Shown piece by piece: positions 3 through 17,857 of a stretch of 21,463 nt of DNA. Positions within the stretch are counted from its first letter, which is position 1, and the number at the start of each line of letters is the position of its first letter. The translations under genes were made by a program, and so were the position numbers. This DNA is from Candidatus Brocadiaceae bacterium. GTDB lineage: Bacteria; Planctomycetota; Brocadiia; SM23-32. Location: the NCBI GenBank assembly GCA_003551785.1, contig PUNP01000462.1:1-21463 (forward strand), given 5' to 3'. The notes under the pieces are model-generated. The model worked only from the letters and a program-made list of their open reading frames with translations, was not told the DNA's origin and did no database searches.

Positions 3-3000
3 CGCCAATACGGTACGGATTTGGAACGGAGGGCTTTGGAGAGCGACACTGCGCTTTTCTCATACCAATTTCGTGACCTGAGGCGTTCAAGGGCTTTTAG
101 GATTTTCCATGATTTGGGACGCACTTATACACGCAGCTATCGTGTAATGGTCGAAGGAGCACCTGAGATCGTTGAATCGCGATTTCTTATTTCACCCCCG
201 GATTACACTGGACTACCTGAAAAAGAAGTTTTAGGTCCTCCACGGCCGGTTGAAGGCTTGCCGGGGTCCCATATCAAGGTCGATGTGAAGCTTGAGCGAT
301 TTGTCGACAACCTATTCTGGGAATCCGATGGTGAAAAAATTGCCTTGGAAAGTGAAGACGGACGAAGGTGGCTGGCGGAAACAGAGATAGAAGAATCAGG
401 CGGTTACGATATCTCCACCTTCCTGGGGCAAGGAGGTGAACGGCAGGTTATTGCTTCCGGAAGCATACTTACCAAGCGGGACAATCCACCATACGTTGAA
501 TTCGTTACTGACAGGTATAATCGCGAGGCCTGGCCCGGCCAGATGGTCTCGTTTGAAATAGAAGCCGAAGACGATTACGGGATTTCAGAGATCATACTGG
601 AGGCTGAACTTTCAGGGAGTGACGGGGCACGCGAAAGTGATGAGTTGAATCGTTGGAGACTTGAAGGGCCGCCCGGTGATAAAGACCCTCAATCGGTAGA
701 GTTTTCTTTCCGCCTTGACCCCAGCAGGTTCGCGCCCGGAGATGAATACATGTTCAGAGCAAAGGCAAAGGATTTTCATCCTGACCGTCAGACTGGACAT
801 TCCAGCCCGATAATGGTGAGTATCACTGGCATGGACGAGCTTCCCGGGGACTTTGATGCGTCCGATGCATTCGGATTGCTCAGCCAGGCTATTGAAATGC
901 AGCAAAGAGCGCTTTCCAATACCCGCACCGTTTCCAATTATATGGATGCTGTGCTTGGTCTGGATCCTGACAGTCCGGATTTCACTTTTTATAACCACCG
1001 ACATCAGATTGAGGTGCGTCAAAGCCGTGTGAAGGAACTTTTGAGTAATGTGCTTCGTTTATCTTCTGAACCTTTGCCCTCATATATCGAAAAATTAGAG
1101 GAGGTCAGTGAAAAAAATGTAAAGCCGCTTGTCAAGCGTATCGGGGGATTGGCTGGAGATGCAAGCCCATGGTTCGAGGATTCTGAACGTGTGGCGGCTT
1201 CAAATGCCTACACGGATGATGGTGAAGGTTGGCATGAGGTCGGGTTTGACGGTAATGATGCTCGTTACGTTGGACTAAGGTTTTATGATTACGATAACCG
1301 ATTTGCGATTTCCAATATGGGGTTTATCGACGCCGAAGGAGAAGTTATCCCCCCGCCATATGTTAATAAATTTTATGTTTCTCCGCATTATAAGGAGTGG
1401 GGGGGGCCGGTTGATTTTGTTGATTTGACCCGGGATGAATTTGATCGTTTTACCGAAAAAGCGCTCAATACCCCACTCAAAGGAGATGAGGGAGCTGTGG
1501 TGAACCTTACCAACAGGGTCGAGGATGCACCCGACCGGAATGTAACTTTATATGCCGTTCGTAAAATTATATGCGAAGAACCACGGCGTGTGTTCCTATA
1601 TGCCGGCAGCAGTGATTCCCTAAGGGTTTGGAGTAACGGGAATCTGGAAATTAACACCCTGACCAGACGTTCTCCTCAACCTGATCAGAATCGTGTAGGT
1701 CTTAGGCTCCGGGAGGGGGAAAATATTATTGTGGCGGAAGTTTCAGCCGATAACAGGGACCCTGCTCTTGCCATGAGGTTTACTGATCGTGACGGCAATA
1801 GCCTCGCTTTGACAGACGATGGTCATCTTGTCCGGGCTGTAGAACCTCAAGTAGTGCATGCCGGGGATGCCCCTGAAAGCGCACTTAATGTGATTGACCG
1901 CGACAGCAATTCTAACTGGCGTGTCGACCATGGCAGACCTCAGCTGTTTATTGTTGACCTCGGGCATGAAATGGAATTATCGGGACTGCGCCTTCGCGTC
2001 CCCGGCGGTGAGGGCCGTAACGCCTTTGGAAGTCATGAAATTTTTGCTGCACGGAATCTCAAAATATATGATACATTGCCTGGACATGTAGAGGCAATTG
2101 AGGATGAACAGGAGGCAATCCTTGATCGGCTGACGGCTATCAGAACCGCTTGGCTGGATGACGATAAAGGTACCCGAATAGCCGAGGAGGAGGGGAGAGA
2201 AGATGAAGAGATGAAAGAGGATGAAGAAAAGGAGGAAGAACTCTCAGGAACTCCGGCTATTGCTTCCGAAGAAATTGAAAGACTGATGGCCGAAACGATG
2301 GAAAGAAGCGAAGAATCCGTTCAGCTTGCTGAACAGCGTAGAAGTGTGCTGGATATGTTTGGGGATGATTTTACTGAAGATGCACTTGATGAGCTCCAGG
2401 AAATTAAGGATAGAGAAAGTCGTATAGCCGAAATTCTGGGTGACGTAGTACACAATATGTCTGAATTGGGGGCTATGGATATGGCCGAAGCCCAGCAGGT
2501 AGAGGGTTTCAGTGAGTTTCGCGAAGCTGCCGAAGAAATGGCCGACCTCATGGAGGAAAAATCTGACGCTTCCCGTGATCAGGACATAACCGCTCTTGAT
2601 GAACTTGGGAAAAACCTTTATGAGGAACTTTTGACTCACGGTGAGACGACAGGTTTCCTGGATAAACAGGATATACCAGCCGCGGTAATGGAGGATGAAG
2701 AAGATGAGCTGGTGCCTCTCCCCCTGGCCGAACTCCCTCAAAGCCTTCATGATGTTATCGGTGAGATGGAAGAAGCGGCTATGGATTATGATGAAGATGA
2801 TGTTGAACAGGAAAGCATCGGTTCCCAACTGCAATCTACCGATGACGGCTTTGGCCCGGTCTCACCGCCGTTAGAGGTCGCGAGCACCTCTGCTCAGGGT
2901 AAGACAGGTAACCAGAGACCTGATGTCTCGCGAGAACTGGAAGGCCGTGCAGGTTTTGGCCGCACCGGTCGGGCCAGCGGTGAGGGGGTCGGCGATGTGG

Positions 3001-3551
3001 CTCAGGATATACCTCAGGACGATGTAGTTCCTCCGGAAAGAGATACCGGAGGTTCCCTGGAAGAGGGTATGGTGGAAGATCAGAGCACCGAGGCCGCCGC
3101 CGAAGCTACCGGCCTGGGTAAACAGACTGATGATACCGAGGAGTTCGGTATGGGGGGCGGAGAACTGCCGCCCGGCCTTTTGGATAATTTGCGTGAAACC
3201 GCCCGGCGATCAGAAGAGTTTCGTGAGACTACAGGGGAAATGGTCACCATACTTGAGCGGCATAACATGCCCTCCCCCGAGCTGAACCGTGCTTTGGAGG
3301 CATTGGAACGGGCGGGAATCGCAGCCGAGGAAGGAGATATCCAGGCTTTTCGCGAATCATACAATCAGGCAATTGACCTCATGACAGATGCCCATGAAAG
3401 TGTAGGGCGGGAAGTGGGACTTCAATATATCAAGGATCGGCAGGCTGGCACCGAGCGTGACAGAGATGTTGTTGATTCAGTAGATATGCCTGAAGGATTT
3501 GAGGATATGATATCGGAGTACTTTAAGGCCCTTGCGGGTGAGGATGAGTAA
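3..3551 (+). CDS. DUF4175-like large coiled-coil protein, 5' end off window
   Basis: The frame is open from base 3 with no stop before the first possible start (TTG at 21), so the true N-terminus, which in this kind of protein usually carries membrane helices, lies upstream. Residues are numbered from the TTG. About 45-270 is beta-rich and Ig-like (PPDYTGLP, then NPPYVEFVTDRYNREAWPGQ), matching the extracytoplasmic part of DUF4175-type proteins. About 280-370 is helical. About 500-600 looks like a sugar-binding jelly roll (VFLYAGSSDSLRVWSNG). About 610-680 resembles an F5/8 type C (discoidin) fold (ALNVIDRDSNSNWRVDHG). From about 690 to the end it is very acidic and coiled-coil prone, with a Gly/Arg-rich stretch near 970-990 (GRAGFGRTGRASGEG). 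The function is unknown; a cell-envelope scaffold role is inferred. It converges on the hydrolase remnant with only 10 bp between their stop codons. Confidence 0.8.
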   Translation, partial: RQYGTDLERRALESDTALFSYQFRDLRRSRAFRIFHDLGRTYTRSYRVMVEGAPEIVESRFLISPPDYTGLPEKEVLGPPRPVEGLPGSHIKVDVKLERFVDNLFWESDGEKIALESEDGRRWLAETEIEESGGYDISTFLGQGGERQVIASGSILTKRDNPPYVEFVTDRYNREAWPGQMVSFEIEAEDDYGISEIILEAELSGSDGARESDELNRWRLEGPPGDKDPQSVEFSFRLDPSRFAPGDEYMFRAKAKDFHPDRQTGHSSPIMVSITGMDELPGDFDASDAFGLLSQAIEMQQRALSNTRTVSNYMDAVLGLDPDSPDFTFYNHRHQIEVRQSRVKELLSNVLRLSSEPLPSYIEKLEEVSEKNVKPLVKRIGGLAGDASPWFEDSERVAASNAYTDDGEGWHEVGFDGNDARYVGLRFYDYDNRFAISNMGFIDAEGEVIPPPYVNKFYVSPHYKEWGGPVDFVDLTRDEFDRFTEKALNTPLKGDEGAVVNLTNRVEDAPDRNVTLYAVRKIICEEPRRVFLYAGSSDSLRVWSNGNLEINTLTRRSPQPDQNRVGLRLREGENIIVAEVSADNRDPALAMRFTDRDGNSLALTDDGHLVRAVEPQVVHAGDAPESALNVIDRDSNSNWRVDHGRPQLFIVDLGHEMELSGLRLRVPGGEGRNAFGSHEIFAARNLKIYDTLPGHVEAIEDEQEAILDRLTAIRTAWLDDDKGTRIAEEEGREDEEMKEDEEKEEELSGTPAIASEEIERLMAETMERSEESVQLAEQRRSVLDMFGDDFTEDALDELQEIKDRESRIAEILGDVVHNMSELGAMDMAEAQQVEGFSEFREAAEEMADLMEEKSDASRDQDITALDELGKNLYEELLTHGETTGFLDKQDIPAAVMEDEEDELVPLPLAELPQSLHDVIGEMEEAAMDYDEDDVEQESIGSQLQSTDDGFGPVSPPLEVASTSAQGKTGNQRPDVSRELEGRAGFGRTGRASGEGVGDVAQDIPQDDVVPPERDTGGSLEEGMVEDQSTEAAAEATGLGKQTDDTEEFGMGGGELPPGLLDNLRETARRSEEFRETTGEMVTILERHNMPSPELNRALEALERAGIAAEEGDIQAFRESYNQAIDLMTDAHESVGREVGLQYIKDRQAGTERDRDVVDSVDMPEGFEDMISEYFKALAGEDE

Positions 3552-6865: not shown

Positions 6866-7615
6866 TTAACTGTCATATCCGAACGGCGGTTCACCGTGGA
6901 CTTGTGCGAGCAGCGTGTTAACGTTTTCAATTTGCTCTTCAGTGCCCCAGGCGGACATACGGACGGAGCCTTCGGCACCGAGGATTCCGCCTGCTGCTAT
7001 GGGCCAGGCCTCGACATTGCATAACACTTTTAACGCTTCGATTTCAGTGAATATTTCACCGCTGACCGGCCAGAGTGTCGGGCCGCTGCCACCGGATGCA
7101 CACTCGATCATTTTAGCCGTATCGTATAAATCGCCCGGGATGCTCTTCTCTATACTGACCGGAATCAGCAGGACCGCTCTGCGTGCGACGAGTGTTCCGA
7201 TAGCGGCACCGATAGTGCCTCCGGTCGGGTGGCCAACCAGGATGCCGGCTTGGTCACGGTCATAATTTAATGCATTAGCGCCTTTGATGAATACATCGGC
7301 GGCTTTCATTTTTGCTACGGCATCAGCAGCAGAAATCCCCTCCCAGAGTTGTCCGTCCCGGTAAACGAGATCCGACAGTTCATTGGCAGTATTAACGTCT
7401 GACTTTTTTTTGACAGGTTTCGTGGTTCCTGTGCAATATAATGTTTTATCGATAGGTTCTCCGGAGAGTTCTTCGGCTACGTAGCTGTTGGTGGTTCCTT
7501 TAGCGACGGCTACGATACCTTTGCGGAGGGCGTTTTTCACTAATTCATATTCAGCTATACCTTTAGCGATAAGGCGTTTTGATTCGGAGGATGTCAGCAC
7601 GAAACTTTTTTGCAT
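6866..7615 (-). CDS. Conserved-looking protein of unknown function, 249 aa
   Basis: I do not recognise this family with certainty. The preferred start is ATG at 7615, because AGGAGA (7623-7628) sits 7 nt before it; a TTG two codons upstream is less likely. The protein is soluble, with no signal peptide or membrane helix. It is glycine-rich and has segments typical of an alpha/beta nucleotide- or sugar-phosphate-binding fold: VAKGTTNSYVAEEL (about 40-53), FIKGANALNYD and VGHPTGGTIGAAIGTLVARR (about 130-150), then CASGGSGPTLWPVSGEIF. A NagB/RpiA-like fold is possible but is only a guess. It sits 27 nt upstream of purB and 27 nt downstream of the DUF481 gene, so it is probably co-transcribed with both. 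It ends FGYDS. Confidence 0.75.
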   Translation of the reverse strand: MQKSFVLTSSESKRLIAKGIAEYELVKNALRKGIVAVAKGTTNSYVAEELSGEPIDKTLYCTGTTKPVKKKSDVNTANELSDLVYRDGQLWEGISAADAVAKMKAADVFIKGANALNYDRDQAGILVGHPTGGTIGAAIGTLVARRAVLLIPVSIEKSIPGDLYDTAKMIECASGGSGPTLWPVSGEIFTEIEALKVLCNVEAWPIAAGGILGAEGSVRMSAWGTEEQIENVNTLLAQVHGEPPFGYDS

Positions 7616-7642
7616 TATCAATTCTCCTATTGGCGGTAAAGG

Positions 7643-11479: not shown

Positions 11480-11546
11480 ATATCAAAAATCAAAGGCTGG
11501 TAGCGTGACTGTCCTGACCGCAGAACCAAGCAGGCAGTCATTTCTT

Positions 11547-11690
11547 CCACGGGGGCAAGCCCCGTGGAGATTTGATCTTTTCGTTGAGATTCGCCTCCCC
11601 CACGGGCCTTGTGCCCGTGGCTTGCATGACTGACTATCAGGTAAATACAACGCCAACAACAGGGAGACTCCACGGGGCTTCTCCCCGTGG
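11547..11690. repeat. Three spaced hairpins, CCACGGGG-N5-CCCCGTGG
   Basis: Perfect 8-bp stems with 5-nt loops lie at 11547-11567 (loop GCAAG), 11600-11620 (CCACGGGC/GCCCGTGG, loop CTTGT) and 11670-11690 (loop CTTCT). CAGTCAT (11535-11541) and ATGACTG (11626-11632) enclose the first two as an outer inverted pair. They follow the glycerate kinase stop by 68 nt and could limit read-through or 3' decay. No poly-T follows any of them, so they are not ordinary intrinsic terminators. Confidence 0.75.
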
Positions 11691-11765
11691 TTATCATGAT
11701 TAGCCTAAAAGCACAATGAAGATACTAAAACTAAAACTTTACTCGGACTTACGCAACTAAGAGCG

Positions 11766-11893
11766 TGGCCGAAAAGGTGCAGGCGTAATGTATGAAAGGC
11801 ATCTTGCCTGTCCAGAGCGCACGCAGGGATGCGTGCTATACTATGAAAGGCATCTTGTGTTACTATATTGCTCATTTTGCACCTTTTCGGCCA
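11766..11893. repeat. Dispersed two-hairpin repeat, copy 2, perfect 16-bp ends
   Basis: TGGCCGAAAAGGTGCA (11766-11781) and TGCACCTTTTCGGCCA (11878-11893) are perfect inverted repeats. The interior repeats the copy-1 hairpins: AGGCA/TCT/TGCCT (11797-11809) and GCACGCA/GGGA/TGCGTGC (11819-11836). A partial internal duplication of TATGAAAGGCATCTTG follows at about 11843. The unit is similar to copy 1 in length, order and sequence. No transposase or clear target duplication is seen, so it is either a MITE-type or a REP-type element. Confidence 0.85.
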
Positions 11894-11934
11894 ACCCCCT
11901 GGTTCACTGAGGACTTATTTAAAATTCTTCATAC

Positions 11935-12008: not shown

Positions 12009-13433
12009 ATGAGCGACCAACGACCCAATATTATTTTTATCATGTCCGACGACCATGCCTCTCATGCGATGAGCTGTTACGGCAGCAAGATAAACCATAC
12101 ACCTAATTTAGATCGTATTGCCGAAGACGGGATGAGATTGGATAACTGTTTTTGCACGAATTCGATCTGCACGCCAAGCCGGGCCGCTATCTTGACCGGC
12201 ACCTATAACCATGTCAATGGCGTCACTACGCTTGCCACTCCCATGGATAACAGGCTGCAGACCTACCCGAAAATTCTCCGGGAAGCGGGCTATCAGACCT
12301 CAATTTTCGGCAAATGGCATCTGGGTACCGGGCCGGAGCATTGCCCGACCGGATTTGACGATTGGGCCGTGCTGCCCGGACAGGGCCGTTATCATAACCC
12401 CGAGTTTATATTCAAAGGTCCTGACGGCGGCGAGAAAAGAACCGTCAAGGGCTATGTTACGGACTTGATTACGGATATGAGTTTGGATTGGCTCCAAAAG
12501 CGCGATAAGGATAAACCGTTCTGTATGATGTATCACCATAAAGCCCCGCACCGCCCGTGGTTCCCGGATGAAAAGCATGACAAGATGTTTTTAGGTGAAA
12601 ACATTCCGGAACCCGAAACTTTGCTGGATTATTATGAAACACGTGCTAAAGCCGCAAAAAACGCCTGGATGCGGGTCGGCGTTCATATGAATAAGCTCGA
12701 TCTGAAGTCGGAAATCCCTAAAGAATTACCGGAGAACGATCTGCGTAAATGGGCCTATCAGCGATATATCAAGGATTACCTGCGTGTGGTGGCAAGCATA
12801 GACGACAATGTCGGGCGTTTGCTCGATTACCTGGAAAAAGAAGGGCTGGATGAAAACACGATGGTGATTTACACCTCCGACCAGGGGTTTTTCCTTGGAG
12901 ACCACGGATGGTATGATAAGCGGTTTATGTATGAGGAATCATTGCGGATGCCCTTCATCGTTAAATACCCAAAAGAAATCGAACCCGGTTCTGTTAATGA
13001 TGATATTGCGCTCAATGTCGATTTCGCGCCCCTGTTCCTTGACCTGGCCGGTGTGCCGATACCGCAGGATTTCCAGGGACGCAGCTTGCGCCCGCTGCTC
13101 AATGGTGAAACTCCCGATGATTGGCGGGATTCCATGTATTATCGCTATTGGATGCATAACGATGGAAGCCACAACGCTTATTCTCATTACGGGATAAGGA
13201 CAAAGCGATATAAACTGATTTATTATTACGCTGACGGGCTGCAGCAGCCGGGCAGCGGGCGAGAGACTGACGAGCCGGAATGGGAACTTTTTGATTTAGA
13301 AAAAGACCCGGATGAAATAAACAATATTTATAACGATCCTGCTTACGCAGGGATCGCCTGTGATTTGAAGGATGAACTTCACCGGCTCCAGGCTGATGTC
13401 GGAGATGAACGTTATCATAAAGATAAAGATTGA
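12009..13433 (+). CDS. Type I (Cys-type) sulfatase without signal peptide
   Basis: This arylsulfatase-superfamily hydrolase has 474 aa. The N-terminal RPNIIFIMSDDH supplies the metal-binding Asp pair (Asp14, Asp15). The core motif ICTPSRAAILTG places the formylglycine cysteine at Cys54 (C-x-P-S-R), which must be oxidised by a maturase not present here. GKWHLG (Lys102, His104) and SDQGFFLGDHGWYDK (Asp291, His299) complete the active site. The C-terminal part ends with the usual ELFDLEKDPDEINN subdomain. An in-frame TAA at 11994-11996 rules out an N-terminal extension, so no signal peptide is encoded; most polysaccharide sulfatases are exported, so this one probably acts inside the cell on an imported sulfated sugar (inference). 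It lies 30 nt before glgP. Substrate unknown. Confidence 0.94.
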   Translation: MSDQRPNIIFIMSDDHASHAMSCYGSKINHTPNLDRIAEDGMRLDNCFCTNSICTPSRAAILTGTYNHVNGVTTLATPMDNRLQTYPKILREAGYQTSIFGKWHLGTGPEHCPTGFDDWAVLPGQGRYHNPEFIFKGPDGGEKRTVKGYVTDLITDMSLDWLQKRDKDKPFCMMYHHKAPHRPWFPDEKHDKMFLGENIPEPETLLDYYETRAKAAKNAWMRVGVHMNKLDLKSEIPKELPENDLRKWAYQRYIKDYLRVVASIDDNVGRLLDYLEKEGLDENTMVIYTSDQGFFLGDHGWYDKRFMYEESLRMPFIVKYPKEIEPGSVNDDIALNVDFAPLFLDLAGVPIPQDFQGRSLRPLLNGETPDDWRDSMYYRYWMHNDGSHNAYSHYGIRTKRYKLIYYYADGLQQPGSGRETDEPEWELFDLEKDPDEINNIYNDPAYAGIACDLKDELHRLQADVGDERYHKDKD

Positions 13434-13463: not shown

Positions 13464-15599
13464 ATGGATTTCCAGCAAAGATTAAAAGAACTTTCGTGCA
13501 ATTTATATTGGACATGGCGTCCGGAGATGATCGATATGTTTCGCGATATCGATCCTGTTTTATGGCGCGAAGCGAACCATAACCCGGTTGAGTTTCTGTC
13601 GCTAATATCGTCTGAAAAGCTGGAGGAAAAGGCTGATTATCTGGCGCTTAACGCGCGGATTAACCATTCTTTTCACCACTTGAAAAAGTATTTACAAGCA
13701 GACCAGACCTGGGGTAATCTGCACGCAGCGCCGTTACACGCGCATCCGGTGGCGTATTTCTCTGCTGAATTTGGACTTCATGAGTCTCTGCCGCTATACT
13801 CCGGCGGTTTGGGCGTGCTGGCCGGCGATCATTTAAAAAGTGCTTCCGACCTCGGCGTGCCGGTCGTCGGTGTGGGTCTGTTCTACGCACATGGGTATTT
13901 CAATCAGAAACTCTCCGAAGACGGATGGCAGAAAGAAGATTACTTCGTCTCCGATGTCAGCGGCCTACCGATAGAGAAGGCGCTGCGTGATGACGGCTCG
14001 CCCGTCGAGATCGAGGTCAATACGCTATCGAGCTCTATCCAGGCACATGTGTGGAGCGCCAATGTCGGACGCAACCGGTTGCTGCTGCTCGATTCGGATG
14101 TCGAGTCGAACTCTGAAAAAGACAGGAGTCTGACCGCAACGCTTTACGGCGGTGATGAGCGGACACGGATACGCCAGGAACTGTTGCTCGGGGTCGGGGG
14201 GCTCAGAACCTTGCTGGAATTGGGAATTCAGCCAGGCCTTTTGCACCTGAATGAGGGGCACAGCGCTTTCGCTATCCTTGAATATGCCCGACGGCTCATG
14301 GAAATGGAGGGACGTTGTTTTGCTGATATTCGGCACAAGACAGCTCAAAAAATCGTCTTTACAACCCATACACCTGTCGAGAGTGGGCATGACAGTTTCG
14401 ATCCCGCCCTGGTTGAGGATACGCTGGAGCCGATGCGCAGAGCGTTAAAACTCCCTCCGCACGATCTGTTGGCATTGGGGCGGGTAAATTCCGATAATCA
14501 TCATGAACATTTTTGCATGACCGTGCTGGGACTCAAGATGTCGAATTACATGAACGCCGTTTCCGCCCTTCACGCCCAGACAACCAGGAAGATGTGGCGT
14601 GAGCTATGGCCGCACACACCGCATCATCACGGCGGCATCAATTACGTCACCAACGGCATCCATACGACTTCCTGGCTGGCCGTCCCCCTGGCGGGACTCT
14701 ACACCCGCCACCTTGGGCAGGGCTGGCAGGACAGGCTTTGCCGCCCTCAAACCTGGGAGAAGCTGAATGATCTGGATCATGATGAGTTCTGGGAACATCT
14801 GCAGGTACCAAAAACCCAGCTCGTCAAGTTCATACACAGGCGGGTCTGCGAAAAATGCGGAAGCAAAAGGCGGGGTAACCTGCTCACACCGCATGATAAG
14901 CTGCGCCTGCATCCGGAAACGCTCACTATCGGATTTTCACGGCGGTTCTCCGAATATAAACGCGCCTTCCTCATACTGGAAGACCTGGAACGGCTGGACA
15001 AAATCATCAATAATGAAGAAAGGCCTGTGCAACTGGTCTTTTCCGGCAAAGCGCATCCTGCCGACCAGCAGGGAAAACAGCTTCTGCAGCAGGTCATCAA
15101 CGTGACCAGGGACCCGAGGTTCCAGGGAAGGGTGATATTTATCGAGGATTACGACATCAATGTCGCCCGGCATCTGGTGCAGGGCGTTGACGTATGGCTG
15201 AATACACCGCGGCGTCCGCTCGAAGCTTGCGGAACAAGCGGCCAGAAGGTCGTGCTCAACGGCGGGCTTAACCTCTCCACTTTCGACGGTTGGTGGCCGG
15301 AAGCTTATGACGGGCAGAACGGGTTCTGTATCGGTAACGGCTCTGAGCATGCCAACACTTCAGTGCAGGATGAAAGGGATACCCGGGCGCTCTATGACAT
15401 CTTGGAAGAGACCGTCATCCCGATGTTTTATAACCGCCCCGAGGACGGCGTCCCTTACGAGTGGGTGGCCTTCCAGAAGCACGCCATTCGGACGCTTGCC
15501 TGGCGCTTCAACGCCGCAAGAATGGTGAAAGATTATACCCTGCAAGCGTATCTGCCGGCCATCGGTGGCGCAACGTCTGGGAAATACTGCATTAAGTGA
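13464..15599 (+). CDS. glgP: Alpha-glucan (glycogen/maltodextrin) phosphorylase
   Basis: This GT35 enzyme releases glucose-1-phosphate from alpha-1,4-glucans using pyridoxal phosphate. At 711 aa it is the shorter bacterial type that starts with a DUF3417 segment (SCNLYWTWRPE at about 11-21). Family landmarks are AYFSAEFGLHESLPLYSGGLGVLAGDH split around residues 97-123, LHLNEGHSAFA, FTTHTPVESGHD, NYVTNGIHTTSW, FSRRFSEYKRAFL and the cofactor site GTSGQKVVLNGGLN with Schiff-base Lys595. Position 594 is Gln where I remember Met in many homologues. The start ATG at 13464 has no visible Shine-Dalgarno, but the DUF3417 alignment supports it. Its last codons overlap the ClC gene by 4 nt (GTGA), so the two are translated together. 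Confidence 0.96.
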   Translation: MDFQQRLKELSCNLYWTWRPEMIDMFRDIDPVLWREANHNPVEFLSLISSEKLEEKADYLALNARINHSFHHLKKYLQADQTWGNLHAAPLHAHPVAYFSAEFGLHESLPLYSGGLGVLAGDHLKSASDLGVPVVGVGLFYAHGYFNQKLSEDGWQKEDYFVSDVSGLPIEKALRDDGSPVEIEVNTLSSSIQAHVWSANVGRNRLLLLDSDVESNSEKDRSLTATLYGGDERTRIRQELLLGVGGLRTLLELGIQPGLLHLNEGHSAFAILEYARRLMEMEGRCFADIRHKTAQKIVFTTHTPVESGHDSFDPALVEDTLEPMRRALKLPPHDLLALGRVNSDNHHEHFCMTVLGLKMSNYMNAVSALHAQTTRKMWRELWPHTPHHHGGINYVTNGIHTTSWLAVPLAGLYTRHLGQGWQDRLCRPQTWEKLNDLDHDEFWEHLQVPKTQLVKFIHRRVCEKCGSKRRGNLLTPHDKLRLHPETLTIGFSRRFSEYKRAFLILEDLERLDKIINNEERPVQLVFSGKAHPADQQGKQLLQQVINVTRDPRFQGRVIFIEDYDINVARHLVQGVDVWLNTPRRPLEACGTSGQKVVLNGGLNLSTFDGWWPEAYDGQNGFCIGNGSEHANTSVQDERDTRALYDILEETVIPMFYNRPEDGVPYEWVAFQKHAIRTLAWRFNAARMVKDYTLQAYLPAIGGATSGKYCIK

Positions 15600-17857
15600 A
15601 AAAAACGGTGAATACTGAAAATCAAAGTGAAAATAAAACTTATATTGGCGGAGTTCTTGACGTTCTGCAATCCAGGCTTATAGCCCTTTACAACAGGCTG
15701 GACAGCACGTATATGCCCCGGATGGTCATTCTCGGTGCTATCGTCGGTATTGTCGGTGGCCTTGGCGCCGTGGCCTTCCATTATCTGATACTCGGCTTCA
15801 AATATGTATTCTGGGGCGCAACATCGACCGAAACGTTTCTGGACGCCGTCAGGGCGCTTCCCTGGCAGTACCGTCTGATCGCCCCAGCGATCGGCGGACT
15901 TATTGTGGGGCCGCTGGTGACGTATGTTGTTAGGGAGGCCAAAGGCCACGGCGTGCCGGAGGTAATGGAAGCGGTAGCACTGCGAGGGGGATCGATCCGT
16001 TTCCGCGTAGCACCGCTGAAGGCCATCATATCCGCCATCTGCATAGGTTCCGGTGGCGCCGCCGGGCGTGAAGGGCCGATAGTGCAGATCGGCGCGACGT
16101 TCGGTTCGGCGCTGGCCAGGTATCTTAAGCTGACCCCCGAGCGGGTGGAAACACTCCTTGGAGCGGGCGCCGCAGCAGGGATCGCCGGCACATTCAACGC
16201 CCCCCTGGCCGGTGTTATCTTCAGCATGGAAGTGCTGCTTAAAAAGGTCAAACTCGACAGTTTCTCGCCCATCGTGGTGGCTGCCGTCGTGGGCACCGCC
16301 GTGGCCAACAAACTTTTCGAGCGCACCACCCCTATCTTCGATATCCCCGTCCATCAGATGGTCAGCTACTGGGAATTGTTCTTTTATATCGGGTTGGGAA
16401 TTGTCGGGGCGGGTGTGGCGATACTCTACGCCAGATCGCTCTATGGGGCCGAGCACCTTTTTGAAAAGATACCGGTGCCGGCGGCTTCCAAAGCGGCGAT
16501 CGGCGGGCTTCTGCTTGGTTTGTTTGCTCTGCTGCTGCCCCAGATACACTCGACAGGCTATCCGGTGATGGAGAGCGCCCTGCATGGCAAGCTGGGCCTG
16601 CAGCTCGTCTTTGGGCTGATGCTCGCCAAAATCCTTGCGACCTCGCTCACTCTGGGCAGCGGCGGCTCGGGCGGCATTTTTGCACCGGCCCTGTTCATCG
16701 GCGCCATGATGGGCGCGGCATACGGCATAGTTATCCATTCGATATTCCCGGATGTCACCGCCGGGCCAATCTCCTACGCCATTGTAGGCATGGGCACGGT
16801 CTTCGCCGGCGCTACGCATGCGCCCCTGACCGCGATCATCATCTTGTTCGAGATGACCCGCGACCCGATGATCATGGTCCCGATGATGTTCACATGCATC
16901 ATATGTTCCGTACTCACCGCCCGATTCCAGAAATGGAATATCTATACCAAAAAGCTCCTCAACCGCGGCGTTGATATCGATGCTATGCAAGAGCGTAAAG
17001 CACTGGAGAGCCTTAAGGTGGCCGATGCGATGAACACGCACTTTACCGCATTGAGTGAAAGGACGTCCGTCGATGAGGCACGGCAGGTATTCCTCAGAAC
17101 CACCTGCGAACATCTCCCGGTCGTTCAGGAGGGGACCGAAAAGCTTGTCGGTCTGCTCGGATACCGTCGCCTGATCGACCACCTGTCGGAGGGCGAAGAT
17201 GGCGATACGGCGGTCGGCAGGCTGGCGCAGCCGCATCCCGCCTGCGTGTATGAGAACGACAGCCTTAAAGTTGCCTTGGCCCGTCTGGAAGACATCATAC
17301 TGAACCTGGTGCCGGTGCTGAAGGATGAAAGCTCCCGAAAAGTTGTCGGGCTTCTGAGCCGCGGGGTGCTGGATCGGACACAGCGCTATGACTGGCTGCT
17401 GTATCTCTCGGCCGACAATATCCTGCTCGAGTTGGAAGCCGATGATCGCGATTCGGCCATAGCGGAGATGTGCCTGGCCGTCGCCGAAAAAATCCCGGAT
17501 TACACCGCTGAAGAACTGGCCGGTGCGGTAAAAGAGCGCGAAAACAGGATGCGGACCGCTCTTGAAGGCGGTATCGCCTTCCCCCATGCCCGTCTGAAAG
17601 GCATCGATCGGCCCGTGGTGCTGCTGGCCCGGAGCACACCGGGGATCGCGTGGGACGCGGACGATGGTGAAGCCACGCATCTGATTTTCCTGGCACTCAC
17701 TCCGGAGAATGATGTCGATACTCAGCTTCAGATAGCCGGCGGTATAGCCGACCTGGCGAGCGATCCGGAAGCGCGCCGTGAACTTTTAGAATGCACGACA
17801 GCTACCGAAGAACTGGCCTGCCTGAACAGGCTGATGGAGATGAAAGGATCAGATTGA
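15596..17857 (+). CDS. ClC anion channel fused to CBS pair and PTS EIIA domain
   Basis: This 753-aa protein has three parts. Residues 40-445 form a ClC membrane domain with GHGVPE (117-122), GREGP (157-161, gating Glu159), FNAPLAGVIFSME (200-212) and GIFAP (360-364). Residues about 473-600 are two CBS repeats (MNTHFTALSERTSVDEA and LAQPHPACVYENDSLKVA). Residues about 605-750 are a fructose/nitrogen-type PTS EIIA domain with the phosphorylatable histidine in GGIAFPHAR (His664). The position matching the E. coli ClC proton glutamate 203 appears to be Val213, which favours a channel-like or non-classical mechanism. The GTG start overlaps the glgP stop (GTGA), so the pair is translationally coupled. 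EIIA modules elsewhere act as phosphorylation-dependent regulators; here it probably senses phosphotransfer state and gates anion flux (inference). Confidence 0.94.
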   Translation: MKKTVNTENQSENKTYIGGVLDVLQSRLIALYNRLDSTYMPRMVILGAIVGIVGGLGAVAFHYLILGFKYVFWGATSTETFLDAVRALPWQYRLIAPAIGGLIVGPLVTYVVREAKGHGVPEVMEAVALRGGSIRFRVAPLKAIISAICIGSGGAAGREGPIVQIGATFGSALARYLKLTPERVETLLGAGAAAGIAGTFNAPLAGVIFSMEVLLKKVKLDSFSPIVVAAVVGTAVANKLFERTTPIFDIPVHQMVSYWELFFYIGLGIVGAGVAILYARSLYGAEHLFEKIPVPAASKAAIGGLLLGLFALLLPQIHSTGYPVMESALHGKLGLQLVFGLMLAKILATSLTLGSGGSGGIFAPALFIGAMMGAAYGIVIHSIFPDVTAGPISYAIVGMGTVFAGATHAPLTAIIILFEMTRDPMIMVPMMFTCIICSVLTARFQKWNIYTKKLLNRGVDIDAMQERKALESLKVADAMNTHFTALSERTSVDEARQVFLRTTCEHLPVVQEGTEKLVGLLGYRRLIDHLSEGEDGDTAVGRLAQPHPACVYENDSLKVALARLEDIILNLVPVLKDESSRKVVGLLSRGVLDRTQRYDWLLYLSADNILLELEADDRDSAIAEMCLAVAEKIPDYTAEELAGAVKERENRMRTALEGGIAFPHARLKGIDRPVVLLARSTPGIAWDADDGEATHLIFLALTPENDVDTQLQIAGGIADLASDPEARRELLECTTATEELACLNRLMEMKGSD

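Follow-up and report, generated by a model that had tools for sequence, protein, structure and literature searches.

The gene at 15596..17857 on the forward strand of the window (the whole stretch of 21,463 nucleotides analysed here) encodes a protein of 753 residues, with a GTG start, in which a ClC membrane domain, a CBS pair and a PTS EIIA domain are joined in one chain, as called from the open reading frame list, Pfam, NCBIfam and a structure model. We read the protein most readily as a channel that carries its own PTS switch, and as one case of the planctomycete addition of EIIA tails to ion transporters. More precisely, we lean towards an anion channel, or a loosely coupled ClC transporter, whose EIIA tail would act in cis as a phospho-switch.

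The initial annotation had described a ClC protein with two CBS domains and a PTS EIIA domain containing the phospho-site His664, a description now confirmed by Pfam and by alignment to PDB sequences. All coordinates below refer to the forward strand. The membrane domain (residues 100–440; 15893..16915) scores 334 bits against Pfam Voltage_CLC, which is present over its full length. The CBS pair consists of one strong stretch (residues 475–531; 17018..17188; Pfam, 50 bits) and one weak stretch (about residues 540–595; 17213..17380), the latter matched at a laxer limit only and with bounds set by eye on the model. The tail (residues 603–743; 17402..17824) is identified as EIIA by Pfam, NCBIfam and PDB sequences alike; it matches the type 2 EIIA model PTS_EIIA_2 (PF00359) with 80 bits against a cut-off of 27, and PtsN chains among the PDB sequences with a best E of 1.4e-11. 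The earlier proviso that the C-terminus might not be EIIA is thus answered by a domain of the fructose/Ntr type. An AlphaFold2 model built from 82 sequences (mean pLDDT 90.7) supersedes an earlier one from 7 sequences (pLDDT 50.1). In the structure comparison the 50 rows shown are ClC entries, and the matched rows stop at residue 597 or earlier, so that the EIIA fold of the tail rests on sequence.

Aligned with E. coli IIANtr (PtsN, 1a6j; residue numbers counted on the alignment), His664 (codon CAT, 17585..17587) is the counterpart of the phosphorylated His73, Arg648 (17537..17539) is that of Arg57, and Gln710 (17723..17725) stands at the place of His120, the second active-site histidine. His664, whose lack of conservation would have spoken against a switch, is present in all eight ClC-EIIA proteins. 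Across the 38 EIIA rows compared, the histidine is found in 38 and the arginine in 36 (seven of the eight ClC-EIIA proteins, the exception being P0003), a conservation that is somewhat built in, since the rows were recruited with the EIIA model and such recruitment favours His and Arg. Position 710 is Gln in six and His in two of the eight ClC-EIIA proteins, and His in 19, Gln in six and Tyr in five of the 30 non-ClC rows. The phospho-acceptor site therefore looks constrained at the sequence level, and the EIIA active site looks not fully canonical.

The glutamine found in six of the eight proteins would suit another reading, which we regard as rather unlikely: that the tail is a protein- or ligand-binding scaffold, no longer a phospho-acceptor, and positions or tethers the channel in the manner of the EIIA-like cytoplasmic domain of band 3, which serves as a scaffold. 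The overlap of Pfam Band_3_cyto with the EIIA domain of two planctomycete proteins, above its cut-off in L200 alone and below it in L191, likewise suggests that such tails need not use phosphate. In a mere scaffold, however, the histidine should drift, contrary to its presence in every ClC-EIIA protein and in every EIIA row, where the arginine is nearly as constant. A PTS relay, moreover, exists in G022, the one searchable genome in which a ClC-EIIA protein was found. There, EIIA, HPr and EI lie side by side (C130:12563-13644), and HPr has its histidine, in SLHLRP. HPr and EI, two of the three partners named in the initial annotation, are accordingly present in that genome. The third, HPr kinase, was not found in G022 by a search that also misses the control Bacillus subtilis, an organism that has an HPr kinase, so that its absence is only weakly indicated; the same search gives a match in three of 14 control genomes, two of them above the cut-off, and also in Halanaerobium G002.

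Under the switch reading that we prefer, PEP would phosphorylate EI, which would pass the phosphoryl group through HPr to His664 of the EIIA tail. The resulting change in the tail would be transmitted via the CBS pair beneath the membrane domain, the pore would open or close, and anion flux would thereby track the carbon and energy state as given by PEP/pyruvate. That the tail is phosphorylated, that it gates the pore and in which direction, and that chloride is the ion carried are our inferences. If PtsN and YcgO are a guide, the tail would more likely act as a brake in its unphosphorylated form: the available text of PMC11808508 describes unphosphorylated PtsN of E. coli as binding and inhibiting the K+/H+ antiporter YcgO. 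In the same vein, unphosphorylated PtsN1 binds KdpD, according to the available part of PMC9239096, and a phosphoryl chain operates in some bacteria without PTS transporters, as set out in the accessible text of PMC2405797.

The CBS pair had also been proposed to bind adenine nucleotides and to read energy charge. Two CBS stretches are indeed present; their ends read GLLGYRRL and GLLSRGVL, and neither has the Asp of G-x-x-[ST]-x-x-D, which we take to be the adenine-nucleotide motif of CBS domains. Energy-charge reading is therefore only weakly suggested by these sequences.

As regards the pore, Glu_ex of the GREGP motif is E159 and is conserved in 56 of 56 rows of the ClC alignment (set A2), whose tails are TrkA_C in 44, EIIA in eight and HATPase in two. 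The Ser_cen place (GSGIP) is taken by His118, in the motif GHGVP, with His in 55 of the 56 rows, and Tyr450 sits just past the membrane domain. By alignment to 1kpl, the Glu_in place (E203 of CLC-ec1) is Val213; across the same 56 rows it is Val in 28, Ile in 27 and Leu in one. According to the available text of PMC3519907, valine occupies this place in all CLC channels, and replacement of Glu_in of CLC-ec1 by nonprotonatable residues abolishes H+ transport and keeps Cl- transport (further background on Glu_in is given in the accessible part of PMC7274781). Tight proton coupling is thus unlikely, and the protein is most likely an anion channel or a weakly coupled transporter, presumably for chloride. 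A channel is not thereby proven, given the isoleucine in 27 rows and given that, in the same text of PMC3519907, Glu_in is absent from some antiporters too. From the earlier suggestion of anion or proton flux, the residues accordingly favour the anion channel and make the proton part unlikely.

The ClC-EIIA fusion is rare yet real, and rare even in Planctomycetota, as judged from sequence searches. The search for the architecture, which the initial annotation had proposed, yielded seven further proteins beyond the window (P0001–P0005, P0007 and L089), of which P0001 is 90% identical to the ClC protein of the window. Six of them (P0001–P0005 and P0007) were the EIIA-bearing ones among the 120 matches listed of 6180 in a full-length homology search; a search with residues 450–753 returned two proteins. 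A ClC at an E of 1e-60 or better occurs in 155 of 392 Planctomycetota genomes, and one of the 35 Planctomycetota ClC frames scanned carried EIIA. The contig scan of genomes covered the best 80 of 584 relatives, with 34 domain-scanned; the other 46 were 44 frames below 640 residues, L053 (internal stop) and L059, and a ClC-EIIA protein of about 620 residues could be missed among them. By far the closest Planctomycetota ClC, with 79% identity over residues 12–473, is that of G022, a ClC-EIIA protein of 659 residues with no CBS match. None of the 146 pattern matches in viral contigs was a relative of the ClC protein, and none of the 358 matching plasmid records covers 80% of the query. Fusions of IIA domains with other proteins are described in older PTS surveys. 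For a ClC-EIIA protein, no paper was found among the open-access PMC articles listed, in agreement with the earlier statement that no system of this composition was known to be described.

The relatives also suggest how the tail was acquired. In a quick-method tree of 69 ClC core rows, one clade of nine rows with an SH-aLRT of 96 unites the window protein, P0001–P0003, P0007, L089, P0017, P0025 and P0061, and within it three kinds of tail occur: CBS-EIIA (window, P0001–P0003), EIIA without CBS (P0007, L089) and TrkA_C (P0017, P0025, P0061). Just outside, with a support of 89 at each fork, lie P0009, for which no tail domain was called, and P0004 and P0005, which have CBS-EIIA. The cores of P0007 and L089 are nearly identical and may represent one lineage. 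A tree of EIIA domains, built by the careful method from 38 rows, joins the six CBS-EIIA tails with two tails of Na+/H+ exchangers (94/89, below the star of the tool). The P0007 and L089 tails fall instead with the MnhG-EIIA that G022 also carries (97/84, starred), and the next branch out holds tails of amino-acid permeases (89/94). The MnhG-EIIA and the ClC-EIIA of G022 are thus close to each other in this tree. A tree constrained to a single EIIA origin for all eight ClC tails was rejected, at a cost of 89.8 log units and a p-AU of 1.2e-5; the group so constrained is a natural one, though it was put to the test with the tree already known, and the main weakness of the test is that EIIA domains are short and diverged. 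On these sequences, this ClC core lineage thus probably acquired EIIA on two or more occasions, and from distinct EIIA lineages. The swapping of tails over related ClC cores amounts to a natural experiment on the cytoplasmic gating of ClC proteins.

The same diversity could be taken differently, namely as the mark of a chloride (salt) uptake route in bacteria of salty or soda water, where EIIA, HATPase, TrkA_C or no tail at all would be lineage-specific osmotic or redox sensors without a common logic. Among the near relatives with a named source are Halanaerobiales and a haloarchaeon, and several of the best genome loci come from the Sed10/Sed16 sediment MAGs, presumably soda-lake samples. We nevertheless consider this explanation improbable: the pI of the 12 window proteins tested ranges from 4.4 to 9.4, which is not the uniform acidity of salt-in organisms, and the repeated choice of EIIA tails in Planctomycetota argues for a common logic.

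That choice extends well beyond ClC. A transmembrane transporter domain was present in 22 of the 44 non-ClC EIIA frames examined from Planctomycetota. The first 17 of these frames (all 14 listed of at least 400 residues, the G022 ClC-EIIA excepted, and three hand-picked ones of 230–331 residues) included 11 with a transporter: two CNNM, four Na_H_Exchanger, four amino-acid permease and one MnhG. The other 27 (at least 360 residues, not already taken, among the matches listed) also included 11: three CNNM, three Na_H_Exchanger, two HCO3_cotransp and three amino-acid permease. The remaining 22 of the 44 comprised five HTH-EIIA, two HPr-EI-EIIA, one ABC ATPase, one octopine dehydrogenase and 13 frames in which EIIA was the sole Pfam domain. 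A transporter-EIIA fusion occurs in at least 14 of 49 Planctomycetota genomes (12 from the matches listed, plus G022 and G053), against one of 50 Acidobacteriota genomes, a contrast that covers two phyla. EIIA itself occurs in 20 of those 50 genomes (29 matches), where the frames examined, those of at least 360 residues, numbered four: three HPr-EI-EIIA and the one Na+/H+ exchanger.

Tails of the same kind on several ion transporters of Planctomycetota may mean that one relay switches many of them. One might go further and suppose, as a tentative proposal to which we give rather less than even credence, that EIIA serves in this phylum as a plug-in tail through which a single phosphorelay governs a fleet of transporters (anion channel, Na+/H+, CNNM, HCO3-, Mrp, amino acids) with no separate regulators. 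The PEP/pyruvate state would then set the ionic state of the cell, and the twice-tailed ClC would be a selected control point. Two other groups of planctomycete EIIA proteins deserve mention. In the band 3-family HCO3- transporters at L191:2293-4677 and L200:1167-3188, the EIIA domain overlapped by Band_3_cyto is N-terminal, a possible link of bacterial EIIA to the cytoplasmic domain of eukaryotic band 3. The proteins at L149:1594-2814, L150:2264-3478 and L153:1502-2710, in G022 and two class relatives, have about 405 residues, an unassigned N-terminal part of 255 residues and a C-terminal EIIA with Tyr at the second-His place.

At its locus, the ClC gene is preceded by a glgP-like alpha-glucan phosphorylase gene (13464..15599, forward strand; 711 residues; DUF3417 and phosphorylase domains), whose product passes TIGR02094 with 792 bits against a cut-off of 191.7. 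The clc start overlaps the glgP stop by four bases, GTGA at 15596..15599, as had been observed initially. The translational coupling proposed from it is inferred from spacing: with a start at the in-frame alternative GTG (15608) there would be no overlap, and by eye neither GTG (15596 or 15608) is preceded by a clear Shine-Dalgarno sequence. Upstream of glgP lies a sulfatase gene (12009..13433, forward strand; Sulfatase and SGSH_C by Pfam, CTPSR motif by eye) without an N-terminal signal peptide apparent to the eye. It ends 30 bp before glgP and is likely the first gene of a transcription unit shared with glgP and clc, so that the unit is probably sulfatase-glgP-clc rather than a glgP-clc pair. 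Promoter and terminator scans of the window gave 10 and 8 hits against 5.9 (sd 2.7) and 7.5 (sd 2.9) expected, and no riboswitch, for fluoride or otherwise, was matched at the Rfam gathering score within the window.

Elsewhere in the window, the 530-base gap preceding the sulfatase gene contains a palindrome-like 22-base repeat, present three times at 11546-11690 (CCACGGGG...CCCCGTGG; 64–100% alike). At 11755-11904, inverted arms of 27 bases, 81% complementary and 96 bases apart, enclose two identical 16-base repeats, an arrangement like that of a small mobile or repeat element. Two predicted proteins are without a Pfam match: an acidic one of 1176 residues (21-3551; pI 4.4) and one of 251 residues (6866-7621, reverse strand), flanked by adenylosuccinate lyase and a DUF481 protein.

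The position of glgP had led to the proposal of a unit for glycogen breakdown: GlgP and the channel would cooperate, and CBS and EIIA would read energy charge during glycogen use. The shared strand, the four-base overlap and the fact that both genes touch phosphoryl metabolism are compatible with it. Against this, glgP was found at none of 124 ClC loci (among 179 loci; upstream reach was at least 2 kb at 65 of the 104 measured, and P0001–P0005 fall outside the sample), nor in the draft genome of G022 at an E of 1e-20; the query recovers itself in the window and elsewhere gives chance-level matches, with E up to 10. The ClC gene of L089 starts 47 bp off a contig end, too close for an adjacent glgP to show. 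Conversely, in the six class members that carry glgP, no ClC was matched at 1e-100. The sulfatase belongs to the same gene run, and the nucleotide-binding residues of CBS domains are absent. GlgP of the window is about 140 residues shorter at its C-terminus than in the four class relatives compared (four of the six with glgP, the other two being shorter frames of 568 and 595 residues), and ends exactly where clc begins. P0001 may well share the glgP-clc pair. The glycogen link is nevertheless probably incidental, and a cooperating glycogen unit strikes us as very improbable.

The switch that we propose has its closest functional parallel in PtsN and YcgO, where, according to the available text of PMC11808508, the activity of an ion transporter is controlled by an EIIA of this type, by way of a cytoplasmic region of the transporter that includes putative RCK and CorC domains. 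That system, however, consists of two proteins acting in trans on a cation/proton antiporter, with no ClC. CLC-ec1 and the eukaryotic CLC proteins with CBS tails (1ots, 3org, CLC-7), on the other hand, have no EIIA, and differ from the window protein in its His at Ser_cen and Val at Glu_in. The ClC-CBS-HATPase proteins of Halanaerobiales and the ClC-TrkA_C proteins share a related core, 49–62% identical to that of the window (P0010, P0013, P0014 and P0017; alignment A4), but their C-terminal regulator is HATPase_c beside CBS, or TrkA_C, and not EIIA. Indeed, many of P0010–P0055, from Halanaerobiales and others, combine the related core and CBS with a C-terminal histidine-kinase-type ATPase domain. 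The planctomycete Na_H_Exchanger-EIIA, CNNM-CBS-EIIA, amino-acid permease-EIIA, HCO3_cotransp-EIIA and MnhG-EIIA proteins resemble the window protein in carrying an EIIA with conserved His on a membrane transporter, CNNM-CBS-EIIA even in the same CBS-EIIA order; they differ in their transport domains and in the second His, which 19 of the 30 non-ClC rows retain. Known PTS control of ion transport involves separate EIIA proteins acting on transporters or sensors such as YcgO and KdpD, whereas here EIIA is covalently built into an anion channel, as we read it, and into several other transporters of one phylum. The old question of what a regulatory PTS without sugar permeases does thereby becomes directly testable, with one domain, one histidine and one flux assay.
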